NCBI GenBank assembly: GCA_946481275.1
Contig: CAMLMV010000036.1
Coordinates: forward strand, 1 to 64,000
Length of the DNA: 64,000 bases
Origin: an uncultured Massilia sp.
GTDB taxonomy: Bacteria > Pseudomonadota > Gammaproteobacteria > Burkholderiales > Burkholderiaceae
Direction of reading: 5' to 3'
The notes beneath the pieces were generated by a model. That model was not told where the DNA came from. It made no database searches and was given only the letters and a program-made list of their open reading frames with translations. Position numbers and translations under genes: made by a program. Below are positions 5,676 through 62,247 of this stretch, piece after piece; position 1 is the stretch's first letter; each line of letters starts with the position of its first letter.

Positions 5676-7614
5676 CGTCATCGACACCGGCGCGTTCTGG
5701 GCTGAAGTGGAACGCCTGACGGAGGCGGGCGAGCTACGCCGCCTGTCCGGCGTGTTCGCGCGCTTCGTGGCGAGCCTCGGCGATGGCGCCTGCGCCAAAT
5801 CGACGCCGTTGCTGCTCGCGTCCCTCGTGCTGTCCGAACTGGAAGGGCGAGGCCACAGCTGCCTGCTGCTGGACGACCTGGTGGGCGATCCGGCCGCGCT
5901 GCTCGGCTGGGCGGACGAGGACTGGAAGGCCCTGGCGAAAGCGGCAAAGCCGCTGCCGCGCGGCGTGAAGGGGTGGGTCGCGCAGCTGGCCGGGTGCGAG
6001 CAGGTGTGGCGCGTGGGCGACCTCGATTGCGACCAGCCGCTCGTGCTGGACGACACGCGCCTGTACCTGCGCCGCTACTGGCGCGACGAGACGCTGGTGG
6101 CCGCGTGCGTGCGCACGCGCGCGCAGGAACGCCGCGACGTCGACCTCGACCAGGCGCATACGTGGCTGGAAGCCCTGTTCGGCGCCCAGCGCGCGGGCGA
6201 GACGCCCGACTGGCAGCGCATTGCCTGCGCCGTCGCGCTGCGCGGCGCGTTCGCCATCATCACGGGCGGTCCGGGTACGGGTAAAACGTACACCGTGGCG
6301 CGGCTGCTGGCGCTGCTGTTCGCGACGGCGCCGGACGCCGCGCGCCAGCGCATCGCGCTCGCTGCCCCGACGGGCAAGGCCGCGGCGCGGCTGAAGCAGT
6401 CGATCGACAAGGCGCTGACCGAGCTGGCCGACCGCGTGGGCGGCGCATTGCCGCTGCGCGAACTGACCACGCGCATGGGCGCCGCGCGCACCCTGCACAG
6501 CCTCCTGGGCGCGCGCCCGGACACGCGCAGCTTCGCGCACCACCGCGGCAATCCGCTCGACGTCGACGTGCTGATCGTCGACGAAGCGTCGATGGTCCAT
6601 CTGGAAATGATGGCGTCGCTGCTGGACGCGCTGCCCGCGGGCGCCACCCTGATCCTGCTCGGCGACAAGGATCAACTGGCGTCGGTGGAAGCGGGCGCCG
6701 TGCTGGGCGACCTGTGCCACGACGCGCAGGCCGGCCGCTACGACGCGGACACGCTCGCGTATGTGCGCGCCGCCAGCGGCGAGACGATTCCCGCCGGGTA
6801 TGAAGGTCATGGCGGCCCGCTCGCCCAGCAGACCGTCATGCTGCGCCACAGCCGCCGCTTCGGCGGCCCGATCGGCAAGCTGGCGCTGGCCGTCAATGCG
6901 GGCGACGTCGACGGCGCGGCCGCCGCGCTGCGTGCGCCCGATGCGGCCGGCGTGCTGCGCTGGATCGACCACGCGCACCAGCACCACGTGATCCAGCTGG
7001 CGAACGAGGGTTATCGCCCCTATCTCGAACTGCTGCGTGCCGGCAGTGCGGGACACGGGAGCCACGAGGACTGGGTGCGCGCGGTGCTGCAGCGCTTCGA
7101 AGCGTTTCGCGTGCTGTGCGCCGTGCGCGAAGGCGAGTGGGGCGTCGAAGGCCTGAACGAGGCCATCGAACTGCGTCTCGCGCACGCGGGCCTGATCGTG
7201 CGCGGCGACTGGTACGTGGGCCGCCCCGTCATGGTCACCCGTAACGACTACCCGACAGGGACGTTCAACGGCGACATCGGCCTCGCGCTGCCGGATCCGG
7301 CCCGTCCCGGTTCGCTGCGCGTGTGGTTCCTGGAAGGCGACAACGTGCGCAGCGTGCTGGCCACGCGCCTGCGCCACGTGGAGACGGCGTACGCGATGAC
7401 GGTCCATAAATCGCAGGGCTCGGAATTCGCGCACACGGTGCTGGCCCTGCCGAAAGAGGGGGGCGCCGTGCTGGCGCGCGAGCTAGTCTATACGGGCATC
7501 ACGCGCGCGAGCCGCCAGTTCACCCTGACGACGCCGGCGCCGGCCGTGCTGGGCGACGCCATCCTGCGCCGTACGCACCGGGCCAGCGGGTTGCGGGGGA
7601 TGGTCGAACAATAG
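5665..7614 (+). CDS. recD: RecD, exodeoxyribonuclease V alpha subunit
   Basis: 649 residues (E. coli 608). RecD is the 5'-3' SF1B helicase of RecBCD. Walker A 'GGPGTGKT' is at about residues 201-208, Walker B 'VDEASM' near 305, 'GDKDQLASVEAG' near 333, and the C-terminal UvrD_C_2 motif 'TVHKSQGSEF' near 580. The start overlaps the end of recB by 11 bases and is preceded by 'ggaaaggagacgcATG', a strong ribosome binding site. The gene closes a recC-recB-recD operon. A loop insertion rich in Gly and His around residue 375, between motifs III and IV, is not clearly matched in E. coli by eye. Confidence 0.95.
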   Translation: MKPDVIDTGAFWAEVERLTEAGELRRLSGVFARFVASLGDGACAKSTPLLLASLVLSELEGRGHSCLLLDDLVGDPAALLGWADEDWKALAKAAKPLPRGVKGWVAQLAGCEQVWRVGDLDCDQPLVLDDTRLYLRRYWRDETLVAACVRTRAQERRDVDLDQAHTWLEALFGAQRAGETPDWQRIACAVALRGAFAIITGGPGTGKTYTVARLLALLFATAPDAARQRIALAAPTGKAAARLKQSIDKALTELADRVGGALPLRELTTRMGAARTLHSLLGARPDTRSFAHHRGNPLDVDVLIVDEASMVHLEMMASLLDALPAGATLILLGDKDQLASVEAGAVLGDLCHDAQAGRYDADTLAYVRAASGETIPAGYEGHGGPLAQQTVMLRHSRRFGGPIGKLALAVNAGDVDGAAAALRAPDAAGVLRWIDHAHQHHVIQLANEGYRPYLELLRAGSAGHGSHEDWVRAVLQRFEAFRVLCAVREGEWGVEGLNEAIELRLAHAGLIVRGDWYVGRPVMVTRNDYPTGTFNGDIGLALPDPARPGSLRVWFLEGDNVRSVLATRLRHVETAYAMTVHKSQGSEFAHTVLALPKEGGAVLARELVYTGITRASRQFTLTTPAPAVLGDAILRRTHRASGLRGMVEQ

Positions 7615-56389: not shown

Positions 56390-57316
56390 TTACAGAGCGT
56401 CGGAGCGCTGGACAGGTTCGGGCTGCAAGGTGACGTGGTCGATGCCGTGCTTGTCGAGCAGCATGGTCTTGACCGCCCGGAGCACGTCGGGCCAGGCGTT
56501 CAGGTCGTCGATTTCCAGGTGGCCGATCAGCGCGGGCTCGCCCGGCGACATGTCCCACACGTGCAGGTCGTGCACGGAGCGCACGCCCGGGATCGCCGCC
56601 AGGTCGGCGCCGATTTTCAGGTAGTCGATCTGGTGCGGCACGCCTTCCATCAGGAAGTGATAGGACTCGCGCAGCACGCTCACCGTCGACTTCAGGATCA
56701 GCAGCGACACGAAGATCGACAGGATCGGGTCGATGCGCACCCAGCCCGTGAAATGGATGACGGCGCCCGCCGCGATGGCGGCGATGGAGCCGAGCAGGTC
56801 GCCCAGCACGTTGACGAGGGCGGCGCGCGTGTTGATGCTCTGCTCGTCGCGCGACAGCACCCACGCGACGGCGATGTTGATGCACGCGCCGATGGCCGCG
56901 ACGATCAGGACGGTCTTGCCGCCCACGTGCTCGGGATGCGCGAGGCGCTGGACGGCCTCGAACACGATCCAGCCGACCAGCAGGAGCATCGCGAGGCTGT
57001 TGACGAAGGCAGCGAGCGCCTCCGCGCGCACGAAGCCGAACGAATGGCGCGCGGACGGCGGCCGCCGCGCGATCAGCTGGGCCAGCAGCGCGAGGCCGAG
57101 GGCGGCGGCATCGGTGACCATGTGGCCGGCGTCCGAGATCAGCGCGAGCGAGTTCGACAGGAAGCCGCTGACGGCCTCCACCAGCGCATACAGCAGGGTC
57201 AGCCCGAGCGCGATGGCCATCGCCCACTGGCTGCGGCCTTCGATCGTGTGGGCGTGGCGGGCGTCGCCGTCGAGGTGGGCGTGGAGGTGGGCGGAAGAGC
57301 CGGCTTGGTCGGACAT
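56390..57316 (-). CDS. Cation diffusion facilitator (CzcD/ZitB-type)
   Basis: 308 residues with a His-rich N-terminus, six membrane helices and a C-terminal cytoplasmic ferredoxin-like domain ('VRSVHDLHVWDMSPGEPALIGHLEI', split). The metal site is His65-x3-Asp69 in 'SDAGHMVTD' on helix 2, but on helix 5 the usual His-x3-Asp reads Asn169-x3-Asp173 ('NVLGDLLGS'). It exports divalent metal ions such as zinc across the inner membrane. The gene is divergent from tRNA-Val. Confidence 0.88.
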   Translation of the reverse strand: MSDQAGSSAHLHAHLDGDARHAHTIEGRSQWAMAIALGLTLLYALVEAVSGFLSNSLALISDAGHMVTDAAALGLALLAQLIARRPPSARHSFGFVRAEALAAFVNSLAMLLLVGWIVFEAVQRLAHPEHVGGKTVLIVAAIGACINIAVAWVLSRDEQSINTRAALVNVLGDLLGSIAAIAAGAVIHFTGWVRIDPILSIFVSLLILKSTVSVLRESYHFLMEGVPHQIDYLKIGADLAAIPGVRSVHDLHVWDMSPGEPALIGHLEIDDLNAWPDVLRAVKTMLLDKHGIDHVTLQPEPVQRSDAL

Positions 57317-57360
57317 GAACTTGGACGATGTGGAAACAGGCGGGCAGTATACCGGTGTCC

Positions 57361-57389
57361 TTGCAGGATGGGGGCTATCCCCTTATAAT
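57361..57389 (+). promoter_or_regulatory. Sigma-70 promoter of tRNA-Val
   Basis: TTGCAG and TATAAT are separated by exactly 17 bases and end 10 bases before the tRNA. The bases after the -10 (GGCGGC) are GC-rich, as in stable-RNA promoters that respond to ppGpp. It may also drive the thrS leader and thrS. Confidence 0.8.
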
Positions 57390-57399
57390 GGCGGCATAC

Positions 57400-57476
57400 G
57401 GGCGGTTAGTTCAGCTGGTTAGAATACTTGGTCGACATCCAAGGGGTCGCAGATTCGAATTCTGCACCGCCCACCA
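57400..57476 (+). tRNA. tRNA-Val (GAC)
   Basis: 77 bases including the encoded CCA. The acceptor stem GGGCGGT/ACCGCCC is perfect, with discriminator base A. The anticodon stem CTTGG/CCAAG closes the loop TCGACAT, giving anticodon GAC (Val, GUC/GUU codons). The T arm has TTCGAAT. It lies directly upstream of the thrS leader in the same orientation. Confidence 0.95.
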
Positions 57477-57485
57477 GAACACAAA

Positions 57486-57521
57486 GACAAGCGCGGGGAA
57501 CTACGGTTTTCCGCTCTTGTC
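57486..57521 (+). other. Hairpin in the tRNA-Val trailer
   Basis: GACAAGCGCGG pairs with CCGCTCTTGTC (one mismatch) around a 14-base loop. It starts 10 bases after the tRNA and has no T-run. It may guide tRNA 3' processing or be part of the thrS leader RNA. Confidence 0.45.
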
Positions 57522-57552
57522 GTCAGTAAGAGCGAGAAAGGCACAAACGGTT

Positions 57553-57594
57553 ATGACACCGCGAACTACAACGACGTTGTGGGGAAATCGCTAG
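57553..57594 (+). CDS. thrS leader peptide, Thr-rich
   Basis: A 13-residue open frame reads MTPRTTTTLWGNR. Five of thirteen codons are Thr, four of them consecutive (ACT ACA ACG ACG, 57565-57576). GAAAGG lies 11 bases before the ATG. The Thr codons can fold as a small hairpin (ACAAC/GTTGT, 57568-57580), and the start region (57552-57560) can pair with 57604-57612. It is followed 50 bases later by an intrinsic terminator and then by thrS. This is the arrangement of a ribosome-stalling attenuator leader. Confidence 0.7.
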   Translation: MTPRTTTTLWGNR

Positions 57595-57644
57595 ACGCGG
57601 TAGGGTGTCATATTGTCTTTCGCAGCAGTTCGACGACACTGAAT

Positions 57645-57671
57645 AAAACGCGCCTGGTGCGCGTTTTTTTT
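57645..57671 (+). terminator. Intrinsic terminator/attenuator before thrS
   Basis: AAAACGCGC pairs perfectly with GCGCGTTTT around CTGGT, followed by a run of eight T in all. It is 62 bases upstream of the thrS start. ACGCG at 57595-57599 could pair instead with the right arm (CGCGT), which would prevent the terminator. Confidence 0.85.
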
Positions 57672-57733
57672 CGTCCAGATTTTTTCATTCCTTTAATTTT
57701 AACGGGCGCAACGGCGCCGAGATGGAGCTCACA

Positions 57734-59644
57734 ATGTTGAATGTTCGCCTCCCGGACGGCTCGAGCCGTCAATTCGAAGGTCCGGTGACGGTCGCCCAGG
57801 TGGCGTCCAGCATCGCCCCGAGCCTGGCCAAGGCCGCGCTGGCCGGCAAGGTCAACGGCAAGGTCGTCGATACGTCGTTCCTGATCGAGAGCGACGCCGA
57901 CCTGGCCATCGTCACGGACAAGGACCCGGAAGGCCTGGACGTCATCCGCCACTCGACCGCCCACCTGCTGGCCTATGCCGTCAAGGAATTGTTCCCGGAA
58001 GCGCAGGTCACCATCGGCCCCGTGATCGACAACGGTTTCTACTACGACTTCTCGTACAAGCGTCCGTTCACCCCGGACGACCTGCAAGCCATCGAGAAGA
58101 AGATGGCGGAACTCGCCAGGAAGGACGAGCCGGTCACCCGCAAGGTGCTGCCGCGCGACGAAGCCGTGGCGTATTTCAAATCGATCGGCGAAGACTACAA
58201 GGCCGAGATCATCGCGTCGATCCCGGCGAACGAGGACGTGTCGCTGTACAGCGAAGGCAAGTTCACCGACCTGTGCCGCGGTCCGCACGTGCCGTCGACC
58301 GGCAAGCTGAAAGTCTTCAAGCTGATGAAGCTGGCCGGCGCGTACTGGCGCGGCGACTCGAAGAACGAGATGCTGCAGCGCGTCTACGGCACCGCCTGGG
58401 CGAAGAAAGAAGACCAGGAGCAATACCTGCACATGCTGGAGGAAGCCGAGAAGCGCGACCACCGCAAGCTGGGCAAGCAGCTGGACTTCTTCCACTTCCA
58501 GGACGAAGCGCCGGGCCTGATCTTCTGGCACCCGAAAGGCTGGACCATCTGGCAACAGATCGAGCAATACATGCGCAAGACCTACCAGGTCACCGGCTAC
58601 AACGAGGTCAAGGCGCCGCAGATCATCGACGTCACCCTGTGGCAGAAGACCGGTCACTGGGACAATTATCGTGAAAACATGTTCACGACCGAGTCGGAAA
58701 ACCGCACCTATGCGCTGAAGCCGATGAACTGCCCTGGCCACGTGCAGATCTATAACGCGGGCCTGCGTTCGTACCGCGACCTGCCGCTGCGCTACGGCGA
58801 GTTCGGCCAGTGCCACCGCAACGAATCGTCGGGCGCGCTGCACGGCCTGATGCGCGTGCGCGGCTTCACCCAGGACGACGGCCACGTCTTTTGTACTGAA
58901 GATCAAATTGCGCCGGAAGTCGTCGCGTTCCACGCCCAGGCAATGAAGGTATACGAGGACTTCGGCTTCGAGAACATCGACGTCAAGATCGCGCTGCGTC
59001 CGGAAAACCGCATCGGTTCCGACGAAGTGTGGGACCAGGCGGAAGAGGCGCTGCGTTCGGCGCTGCGCGGCTGCGGCGTGACCTGGACGGAGCTGCCGGG
59101 CGAGGGCGCGTTCTACGGTCCGAAGATCGAGTACCACCTGAAGGATAGCCTCGGCCGTCCGTGGCAGGTCGGCACGATGCAGGTCGACTTCTCGATGCCG
59201 GGCCGTCTCGGCGCGGAATATGTCGCGGAAGACAATTCCCGCAAGGTGCCGGTGATGCTGCACCGCGCGATCGTCGGCTCGATGGAACGCTTCATCGGCA
59301 TCCTGATCGAGAACTACGCGGGCGCGTTGCCGCTGTGGCTGGCGCCGGTTCAGGTTGCCATCCTGAACATTTCGGATGCACAGGCCGATTACGTCAAACA
59401 GGTCGAGGCGAAGCTGAAGGCGGCGGGCCTGCGTGTTCACGCTGATTTGCGGAACGAGAAGATTACCTATAAAATTCGGGAGCACTCCGTCCAAAAACTG
59501 CCGTACATCCTAGTTGTCGGCGATAAAGAGCGGGATGCCAACACTGTGGCCGTTCGCGCCCGTGGCAATATCGACCTTGGCGTCATGCCGGTCGATGCGC
59601 TGCTGGAACGCCTCCAAGGCGAGGTAGCATCCAAGGCGAAGTAA
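57734..59644 (+). CDS. thrS: Threonyl-tRNA synthetase
   Basis: 636 residues. TGS domain at the start, then the editing domain with 'HSTAHLLAY' near residue 75 and '[10 protein letters not shown]' near 180. The class II core follows: zinc Cys in '[10 protein letters not shown]' near 334, motif 2 '[15 protein letters not shown]', and the C-terminal anticodon-binding domain. It charges tRNA-Thr. The start at 57734 has GGAG 6 bases upstream and gives the family's '[10 protein letters not shown]' opening; an ATG at 57722 lies inside that ribosome binding site region. A Thr-rich leader and terminator precede it. Confidence 0.96.
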
Positions 59645-59697
59645 TCAAGCAAGCGCCTTGAGACGGCACTATCCATCTTACTTTCAAAGGAAACAAC

Positions 59698-60222
59698 ATA
59701 GCTACTGACAAGTCGTCACATCGCATCAATGGCGAAATCAACTATCCCGAAATGCGTCTGAACGGGGTGGACAACGAGCCGCTGGGCATTGTGAGCCTGG
59801 CCGAGGCGTTTCGTCTGGCTGAAGAAGCGAACGTGGACCTGGTCGAGATCGCGCCGAACGCGACCCCGCCGGTGTGCCGCCTGATGGACTACGGCAAGTT
59901 CAAGTATTCGGAGCAGAAGAAGGCGCACGAAGCGAAGCTGAAGCAGAAGATCATCCAGGTCAAGGAAATCAAGTTCCGTCCGGGTACGGACGAGGGTGAC
60001 TACAGCATCAAGCTGCGTAACCTGATCAAGTTCCTGGAAGAGGGTGACAAGACCAAGATCACCCTCCGCTTCCGTGGCCGCGAGATGGCTCACCAGGATA
60101 TCGGCCAGCGCATGCTGGAGCGTCTGCGCGGTGACCTTGAGCCGTATGGCCAGGTCGAGCAGTTTCCGAAGCTGGAAGGCCGCCAGATGATCATGGTTGT
60201 CGCGCCGAAAAAGAAGAAGTAA
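59698..60222 (+). CDS. infC: Translation initiation factor IF-3, non-canonical ATA start
   Basis: 174 residues when started at ATA 59698. IF-3 binds the 30S subunit and checks the start codon. The conserved 'RINGEI' near residue 8 lies upstream of the first ATG (59752), and the frame has no ATG, GTG or TTG between the in-frame stop at 59659 and that point. AAAGGA sits 6 bases before the ATA. E. coli infC starts at AUU and is autoregulated because IF-3 rejects such codons, so the same logic probably applies here. The rest, including '[15 protein letters not shown]' and the C-terminal '[14 protein letters not shown]', is normal. Confidence 0.93.
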
Positions 60223-60242
60223 TTCTTCGTCGAGTCTAGCCG

Positions 60243-60288
60243 GGCCAGGCCCGGGCCCCGGGAGGTGTCCCGCGGCCCGGGCTTGGCC
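60243..60288 (+). terminator. Large GC hairpin after infC
   Basis: GGCCAGGCCCGGGCC pairs with GGCCCGGGCTTGGCC (15 bp, one G-T), with an inner CGGGA/TCCCG stem, followed by a T-rich stretch (TATTCCGTTTTC). It lies 20 bases after infC. It probably acts as a partial terminator or attenuator before rpmI. Confidence 0.7.
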
Positions 60289-60506
60289 TATTCCGTTTTC
60301 CGGTTGCTGATGTGCATGGCGCAGATGTGCATTGGCGTAAAACTGTGCTAGAATCTGCGGTTCCCATGTTCGCAAGGACGGGAATGCAAGACTGTAGTGG
60401 ACCCGCTTCCGCTGCAGAGACAAGTGAAAGTAGGCATCCAAGAGCAGCGTTGCTGCCACCTGCAATCCTGTCACATATGAGGCTGCCTGTAAGAGGGCAG
60501 AAGACT
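60289..60506 (+). promoter_or_regulatory. rpmI-rplT leader region with a candidate promoter
   Basis: 218 bases without a gene. An extended -10 element TGC-TAGAAT (60346-60354) could start a separate rpmI-rplT transcript. A small hairpin CTGCC/GGCAG just before the rpmI ribosome binding site (60484-60500) is a possible site for L20-type autoregulation, by analogy with other bacteria only. Confidence 0.45.

Positions 60507-61092: not shown

Positions 61093-62247
<1,155 letters not shown>

Follow-up and report, generated by a model that had tools for sequence, protein, structure and literature searches.

A candidate threonine-codon attenuator between tRNA-Val and thrS in betaproteobacteria

The region between tRNA-Val and thrS

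The window, a stretch of 64,000 nucleotides from an uncultured Massilia sp. (contig CAMLMV010000036.1 of assembly GCA_946481275.1), carries on its forward strand a gene for tRNA-Val (GAC) (57400..57476; ARAGORN, and Rfam RF00005 at 62 bits), followed by thrS (57734..59644), which was identified by tblastn to named thrS relatives, the nearest of which are from Massilia. The mechanical ORF starts at 57722, and we prefer the ATG at 57734 because of its spacing to a GGAG. Downstream of thrS come infC, rpmI, rplT and pheS, named from reading the ORF translations. Just before pheS there is an 8-bp inverted repeat, CCTGTTTT / AAAACAGG (61180-61218); it stands alone, without a clear T run or a Phe-rich leader, and a Phe leader at this place was rejected.

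Between the tRNA, which ends 76 nt upstream, and thrS lies a short forward-strand ORF, MTPRTTTTLWGNR (57553..57594), read from the sequence and its relatives. Its codons are ATG (57553) ACA CCG CGA ACT ACA ACG ACG TTG TGG GGA AAT CGC and the stop TAG (57592-57594), so that the frame of 13 codons with five Thr codons, as originally predicted, is what the sequence reads, with Thr at codons 2, 5, 6, 7 and 8. A Shine-Dalgarno-like GAGAAAGG (57534..57541, + strand) precedes it, and in the alignment of 30 Oxalobacteraceae leaders its GAAAGGC does not vary; the conservation of this element and of the ORF suggests a translatable leader. ACN triplets make up 5.3% of the window, from which the chance probability of at least five Thr in 12 codons is 2.5e-4. 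Among the 218 ATG frames of 8-20 codons on both strands of the window, only two contain at least five Thr or TTTT, namely the leader and a frame at 6941 (+). The run of four consecutive Thr codons is present in the window and does not hold as a conserved feature, since codon 8 is T, W, M, G, Q, K, L or R among Massilia loci; the mostly conserved Thr codons are 2 and 5-7.

The leader is followed by an intrinsic terminator (57645..57671, +), with a stem of 9 pairs (57645-57667), a loop at 57654-57658 and a T run; the terminator ends 66 nt before the preferred thrS start, is conserved and agrees with the original prediction, as does a 7-bp hairpin over codons 5-10 (57566..57582, +), which might act as a pause hairpin. 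Three further segments of the forward strand can pair in alternative ways. Segment 1, around the start codon (57552..57560), forms a perfect 9-bp helix with 57604-57612, which belongs to segment 2 (57590..57612). The other parts of segment 2, 57590-57599 and 57605-57609, would form the antiterminator with segment 3 (57635..57658), the main helix joining 57590-57599 to 57649-57658, the left arm and loop of the terminator, and a smaller one joining 57605-57609 to 57635-57639, which are complementary on reading the sequence. Both the 9-bp helix and this smaller pairing had been proposed beforehand. Folding of 57477-57675, a stretch which includes the terminator and a hairpin of the tRNA-leader spacer, gave a better energy than any of 200 shuffles (z -4.75). 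The spacer hairpin (57486..57521, +) is imperfect, and by eye it occurs in only some close relatives.

Recurrence of the leader in relatives

Named thrS relatives were represented by the best 80 of at least 585, of which 50 (L001-L050) are Oxalobacteraceae by their record titles. The strict finder detected leader and terminator together in 47 of these 50 loci, and in 48 when L025, where an insert exceeds the distance allowed by the finder, is added; L039 and L048 have no leader. The insert of L025, about 100 nt of hairpin-rich DNA, separates the leader stop from the remaining parts of the attenuator. Ten of the 30 other named loci also have the leader, and a search within the genus recovered it in 30/30 loci, counts that are not independent as the two sets overlap in species (L001 and L081, for instance, are alike). 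In the comparison of tRNA-Val/thrS intergenic regions that had been proposed as a check, the Thr codons, the frame, the terminator and the alternative helices recur together.

For the order, an even draw of 145 genomes gave 143 with a thrS match, and the upstream regions of 134 were examined, second copies being left out. Three genomes of the order (G069, G113 and G153) carry such second, diverged thrS copies, with 55-58% identity to thrS of the window. A strict leader is present in 36/134 regions, a few of which may be due to chance, as about 3% of shuffles also yield one, and is absent from the other 98, some of which have looser Thr frames and many none. By the criterion used, a terminator is found in 80 of the 134. 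When only terminator-bearing regions outside the family of the window are considered, the leader occurs in 31/75, against 118/3750 shuffles. Of the 50 families covered (mapped by hand), 18 have a recognisable leader, with variants such as MSFRTTTT, MFRTCTTT, MFKRTTTT, MQLNRTTTTS and MTPLT. No strict leader was detected in the 25 non-beta loci of a phylum survey, drawn from the best-scoring 30 of 116 matching genomes.

A search of 300 genomes of the order for the exact 16-nt start motif gave 34 occurrences, and in all 24 loci examined it lies 139-249 nt upstream of thrS. With one mismatch allowed there were eight matches, and thrS was in the 3-kb locus of one of the six examined; the reversed pattern, used as a control, also matches occasionally at one mismatch. 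Thr-rich frames sought without any motif requirement were found at p 1e-3 in 8/129 order regions and 1/801 shuffles, and in none of 29 other named beta regions or 25 phylum regions, with next to nothing at 1e-4; Thr enrichment alone is a weak test because the ORFs are so short.

Competing helices and modelled ribosome states

Two leader sets were used for the comparative tests. The swap and shuffle tests and the codon table are based on 117 leaders, selected with a terminator criterion without stems running into the T tract, while tRNA distance, register, folding and the pause hairpin were analysed in 124 leaders, which include such stems. In the swap test, native pairings were compared with pairings to partners from other genomes, using 38 representatives with less than 75% identity and 5000 permutations. 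Segment 1 pairs better with its own segment 2 (start region with post-stop region, z -4.85, 0/5000), and segment 2 with its own segment 3 (post-stop region with the left part of the terminator, z -4.24 when the segments do not overlap and -5.25 when they do, 0/5000). The control pairings gave z -1.84 for 1:3 (177/5000, weakly better than swapped, for a pairing which is outside the attenuator model), -0.95 for 1:4 (848) and 0.02 for 2:4 (2545). Shuffles of each sequence's own composition gave Stouffer values of -5.6 for 1:2 and -5.9 for 2:3, against 0.33, 0.01 and 1.01 for 1:3, 1:4 and 2:4. With 14 representatives below 65% identity the counts were 15/5000 for 1:2, 0/5000 for 2:3 and 110/5000 for 1:3. 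The 2:4 value bears on one pairing of the original prediction, 57595-57599 with the right arm of the terminator, which finds no support in this comparison and was rejected; the supported partner of segment 2 is the left arm and loop.

The alignment of 30 Oxalobacteraceae leaders has 88.6% of the antiterminator paired, where slid versions reach 55.0% at most; for the terminator 97.3% of cells are paired, and slid versions reach 80.0% at most. Two pairs of the inner antiterminator helix show both U-A and C-G (15 and 11 sequences for one, 8 and 11 for the other). The number of double-change pairs in the antiterminator of these 30 leaders is not above that of shuffles (247/500), and further pair types are fewer than in shuffles, 499/500 of which are at least as high. 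The register of the antiterminator, measured from the stop codon, has a peak of 0.766, compared with 0.534 at most, and varies among Oxalobacteraceae leaders. In at least 6 of 40 Oxalobacteraceae stop/terminator combinations (L009, L011, L013, L014, L017 and L019) the stop comes earlier and CGCTAGTC is still found downstream, which indicates that there is more to this RNA motif than the stop codon. Swap tests, shuffles and pair counts together point to the three mutually exclusive helices of an attenuator, 1:2, 2:3 and 3:4.

The hairpin over the Thr codons scored better than shuffles in 51 interrelated Oxalobacteraceae segments (Stouffer -5.18) and weakly in 28 others (-1.47), and a pause hairpin was therefore rejected as a general feature.

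Ribosome positions were modelled by folding transcripts from which the RNA under the ribosome had been removed, with approximate footprints. Before the right arm of the terminator is made, the left arm is sequestered with a mean probability of 0.79 when the ribosome is stalled at Thr, 0.50 without a ribosome and 0.53 with the ribosome at the stop (124 leaders); the stalled value exceeds that of the stop state in 103/124 and that without a ribosome in 105/124. The corresponding values for the window are 0.80, 0.47 and 0.25. At equilibrium of the full-length RNA the terminator of the window still wins in the stalled state (0.98), so that one has to assume a kinetic race; under these conditions the antiterminator wins in 6 of the 22 loci displayed. 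The native switch of 42 leaders was +0.183, compared with -0.016 for shuffled linkers (p 5e-5), while native and shuffled linkers were alike in the terminator probability of the stalled state (p 0.45). As modelled, the ribosome states would give the logic expected of an attenuator.

Proposed control of thrS, alternatives and known systems

The features of the leader recur together, the competing helices co-vary and folding gives a switch, all of which support the original prediction of a Thr-reading attenuator of thrS. We consider it very probable that the leader is a ribosome-mediated transcription attenuator which reads charged tRNA-Thr from within the transcript of the upstream tRNA-Val, and control probably extends to the whole thrS-infC-rpmI-rplT-pheS operon. 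Transcription would start before tRNA-Val, and a ribosome would initiate at 57553. With ample Thr-tRNA the ribosome would reach the stop and cover segment 2, the terminator would form, and the product would be mainly tRNA-Val. When Thr-tRNA is scarce, the ribosome would stall at codons 5-8 and cover segment 1, leaving segment 2 (57590-57599 and 57605-57609) free to trap 57649-57658 and 57635-57639, and the polymerase would continue into thrS. Without translation, segment 1 would pair with segment 2 and the terminator would form. In this scheme the frame, the Thr codons, the three helices with their co-variation and the position before thrS are taken from the comparison of sequences; ribosome stalling, read-through and the physiological range are inferred.

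The codons show which parts of the leader are under constraint. The 87 distinct leader ORFs show little nucleotide variation in the codons up to and including the anchor (CCG in 69, CGA in 79, ACT in 72), partly because the finder required C[GTC][AG]AC at the anchor, besides two Thr in all; near-fixed nucleotides are also as expected of a segment that pairs. The anchor demand is not needed for the homology-based Oxalobacteraceae alignment, the rows of which were taken from the finder's list, and there GGTTATGACACCGCGAAC around the start codon is invariant. The two positions that follow the anchor Thr behave differently. The first encodes Thr in 58/87 ORFs (ACA 18, ACG 16, ACC 14, ACT 10) and the second in 61/87 (ACC 34, ACG 14, ACT 9, ACA 4); as all four synonyms follow the conserved Arg-Thr, it is the amino acid that is kept. 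By this comparison, both the peptide and the RNA of the leader are kept.

The nucleotide conservation of GGTTATGACACCGCGAAC in Oxalobacteraceae exceeds what coding needs, as would be the case if ThrRS itself bound the leader RNA in an E. coli-like autoregulation to which the Thr codons were secondary; E. coli ThrRS is described as an RNA-binding protein regulating its own expression in the excerpt of PMC2965389. Part of this conservation is accounted for by the pairing of segment 1, and the synonymous Thr codons, a terminator ending 66 nt before the preferred thrS start and the helix switching point instead to control by the ribosome. We regard ThrRS binding as very improbable.

Under another explanation, the hairpin does no more than terminate tRNA-Val, and the Thr frame is there by chance. 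This draws on the position of the leader, as tRNA-Val (GAC) is found upstream of 108/124 leaders; for the other 16, some of which are near contig ends, a search of the 400 nt upstream detected no tRNA, and these speak against it. It also draws on loci that have lost the leader and retained the terminator, which had been named as a possible refutation. A terminator without leader is present in L048 and L118, and a terminator-like hairpin, by eye, in L039 and several Polynucleobacter loci. Judged by sequence, L118, L048 and the Polynucleobacter loci displayed have a tRNA-Val upstream, so that the tRNA transcript could still be ended there by the terminator, and we read these few lineages as losses of the leader rather than as refutation. 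L118 and L048 both belong to the family of the window; in them the terminator comes after tRNA-Val, with hardly anything in between in L118. A mere tRNA terminator does not account for a leader frame, Thr synonyms and competing helices that are conserved and co-vary, and we find this explanation very improbable. That the leader senses general translation, or acts through an M-T-P-R-T nascent-peptide effect, instead of sensing Thr-tRNA is hardly credible: within the peptide P-R-T does vary least (CGA as above, partly imposed by the finder), but several families have another residue in place of P or R and keep Thr (MSFRTTTT, MFRTCTTT, MQLNRTTTTS, MTPLT, MRPPTT), and the gene after the leader is thrS.

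A ribosome-read attenuator inside the tRNA-Val transcript agrees with the spacing of the two genes. The tRNA end is a median of 44 nt from the leader ATG (minimum 17), and in 78/108 loci the gap is at most 60 nt, so that a promoter would hardly fit, if at all; 82/108 have a -10-like box (TA[TA]NNT) within 22 nt before the tRNA. In the window, TTGCAG and TATAAT (57384-57389), 17 nt apart (57361..57389, +), are the probable promoter of the tRNA-Val/leader transcript, as read from the sequence; the candidate is absent from the list of a consensus scan and its -35 matches at 3/6 positions. For C. metallidurans, the excerpt of PMC9045368 assigns a mapped transcription start to thrS; its locus tag, Rmet_R0015, is in the style of an RNA gene, and its hexamer regions are TTGCACGCGA and GTTATACTTG. 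This promoter sequence, with its 12-nt spacer, matched 2/398 genomes of the family, both of the same genus, and in both the site lies directly before tRNA-Val (GAC), followed by the frame MSKTTRTTTAG, a terminator by eye and thrS. A single transcript of tRNA-Val and leader is well supported in these two genomes; in the window, where they are 76 nt apart, they probably share one as well. A plasmid-collection search with the Cupriavidus stretch as query matched, among the matches listed, about one fifth of the query, the tRNA part only. Locus L009 has two tandem tRNA genes before thrS (1105-1178 and 1239-1312).

Taken more broadly, we lean towards a view in which one promoter in betaproteobacteria makes both tRNA-Val (GAC) and an attenuated thrS-infC-ribosomal-protein-pheS operon, tRNA-Thr charging would set the share of transcripts that continue, tRNA processing would make the 5' end of the leader, and an unrelated Thr mini-leader (MSTTTA..) would have arisen before thrS in a gammaproteobacterial family.

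In E. coli, thrS is under autogenous translational control, a protein-RNA interaction in which ThrRS binds anticodon-arm-like stem-loops of an operator that overlaps the thrS ribosome-binding site. The logic there is also autogenous and concerns the same gene, but the window has instead a transcription terminator with Thr codons. T-box riboswitches of Gram-positive thrS genes sense tRNA-Thr charging and act by termination, like the leader proposed here, but bind the tRNA directly. No T-box was detected by Rfam in 56500-60500 of the window up to E = 1, and at the gathering cut-off Rfam 15 recognised tRNA alone in this region and in 13 related loci (12 beta). A match to RF02420 (Bp1_162) was rejected, with 25.6 bits against a cut-off of 50, on the opposite strand, and with the three places of this family in 150 genomes not at thrS.

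Ribosome-mediated attenuators are classically those of the trp, his, thr and ilv amino acid operons. Synthetase cases are pheST of gammaproteobacteria, trpS and leuS, as stated in the excerpt of PMC1262725, and pheST, as far as described there, resembles thrS in being a synthetase operon. With the classical and pheST attenuators the thrS leader shares a cognate-codon-rich ORF, the 1:2, 2:3 and 3:4 helices and an intrinsic terminator; it differs in its cognate gene, thrS, in following tRNA-Val, probably on the same transcript, and in a very short ORF whose start codon is within segment 1. Closest in position is thrL of Streptomyces lividans, a short ORF with two Thr codons annotated before thrS as an attenuator; according to the excerpt of PMC8079986, this actinobacterial leader encodes MKRVRPFLETTPGFVPAR with 2 Thr, is leaderless and has no clear terminator in its authors' view, and by eye its peptide does not resemble that of the window. 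Among the matches listed from open-licence PMC papers, none described a Thr attenuator of thrS in Proteobacteria. The mechanism is a known one, and what is new is the setting, the proposed control of thrS inside a tRNA transcript. It offers a concrete and testable idea of how an essential synthetase and its operon may be controlled in many betaproteobacteria, by a route unlike that of E. coli and tied to a tRNA transcript. The conserved leader might be used to report threonine starvation, and it might be curated as an RNA family.

A different mini-leader, M-S-T-T-T-A.., was observed upstream of thrS in a gammaproteobacterial family (L273-L299). An M.?TT frame is present in 25/27 of these regions, that of L284 being probably spurious, and a terminator-like hairpin follows it in 21 of the 25.
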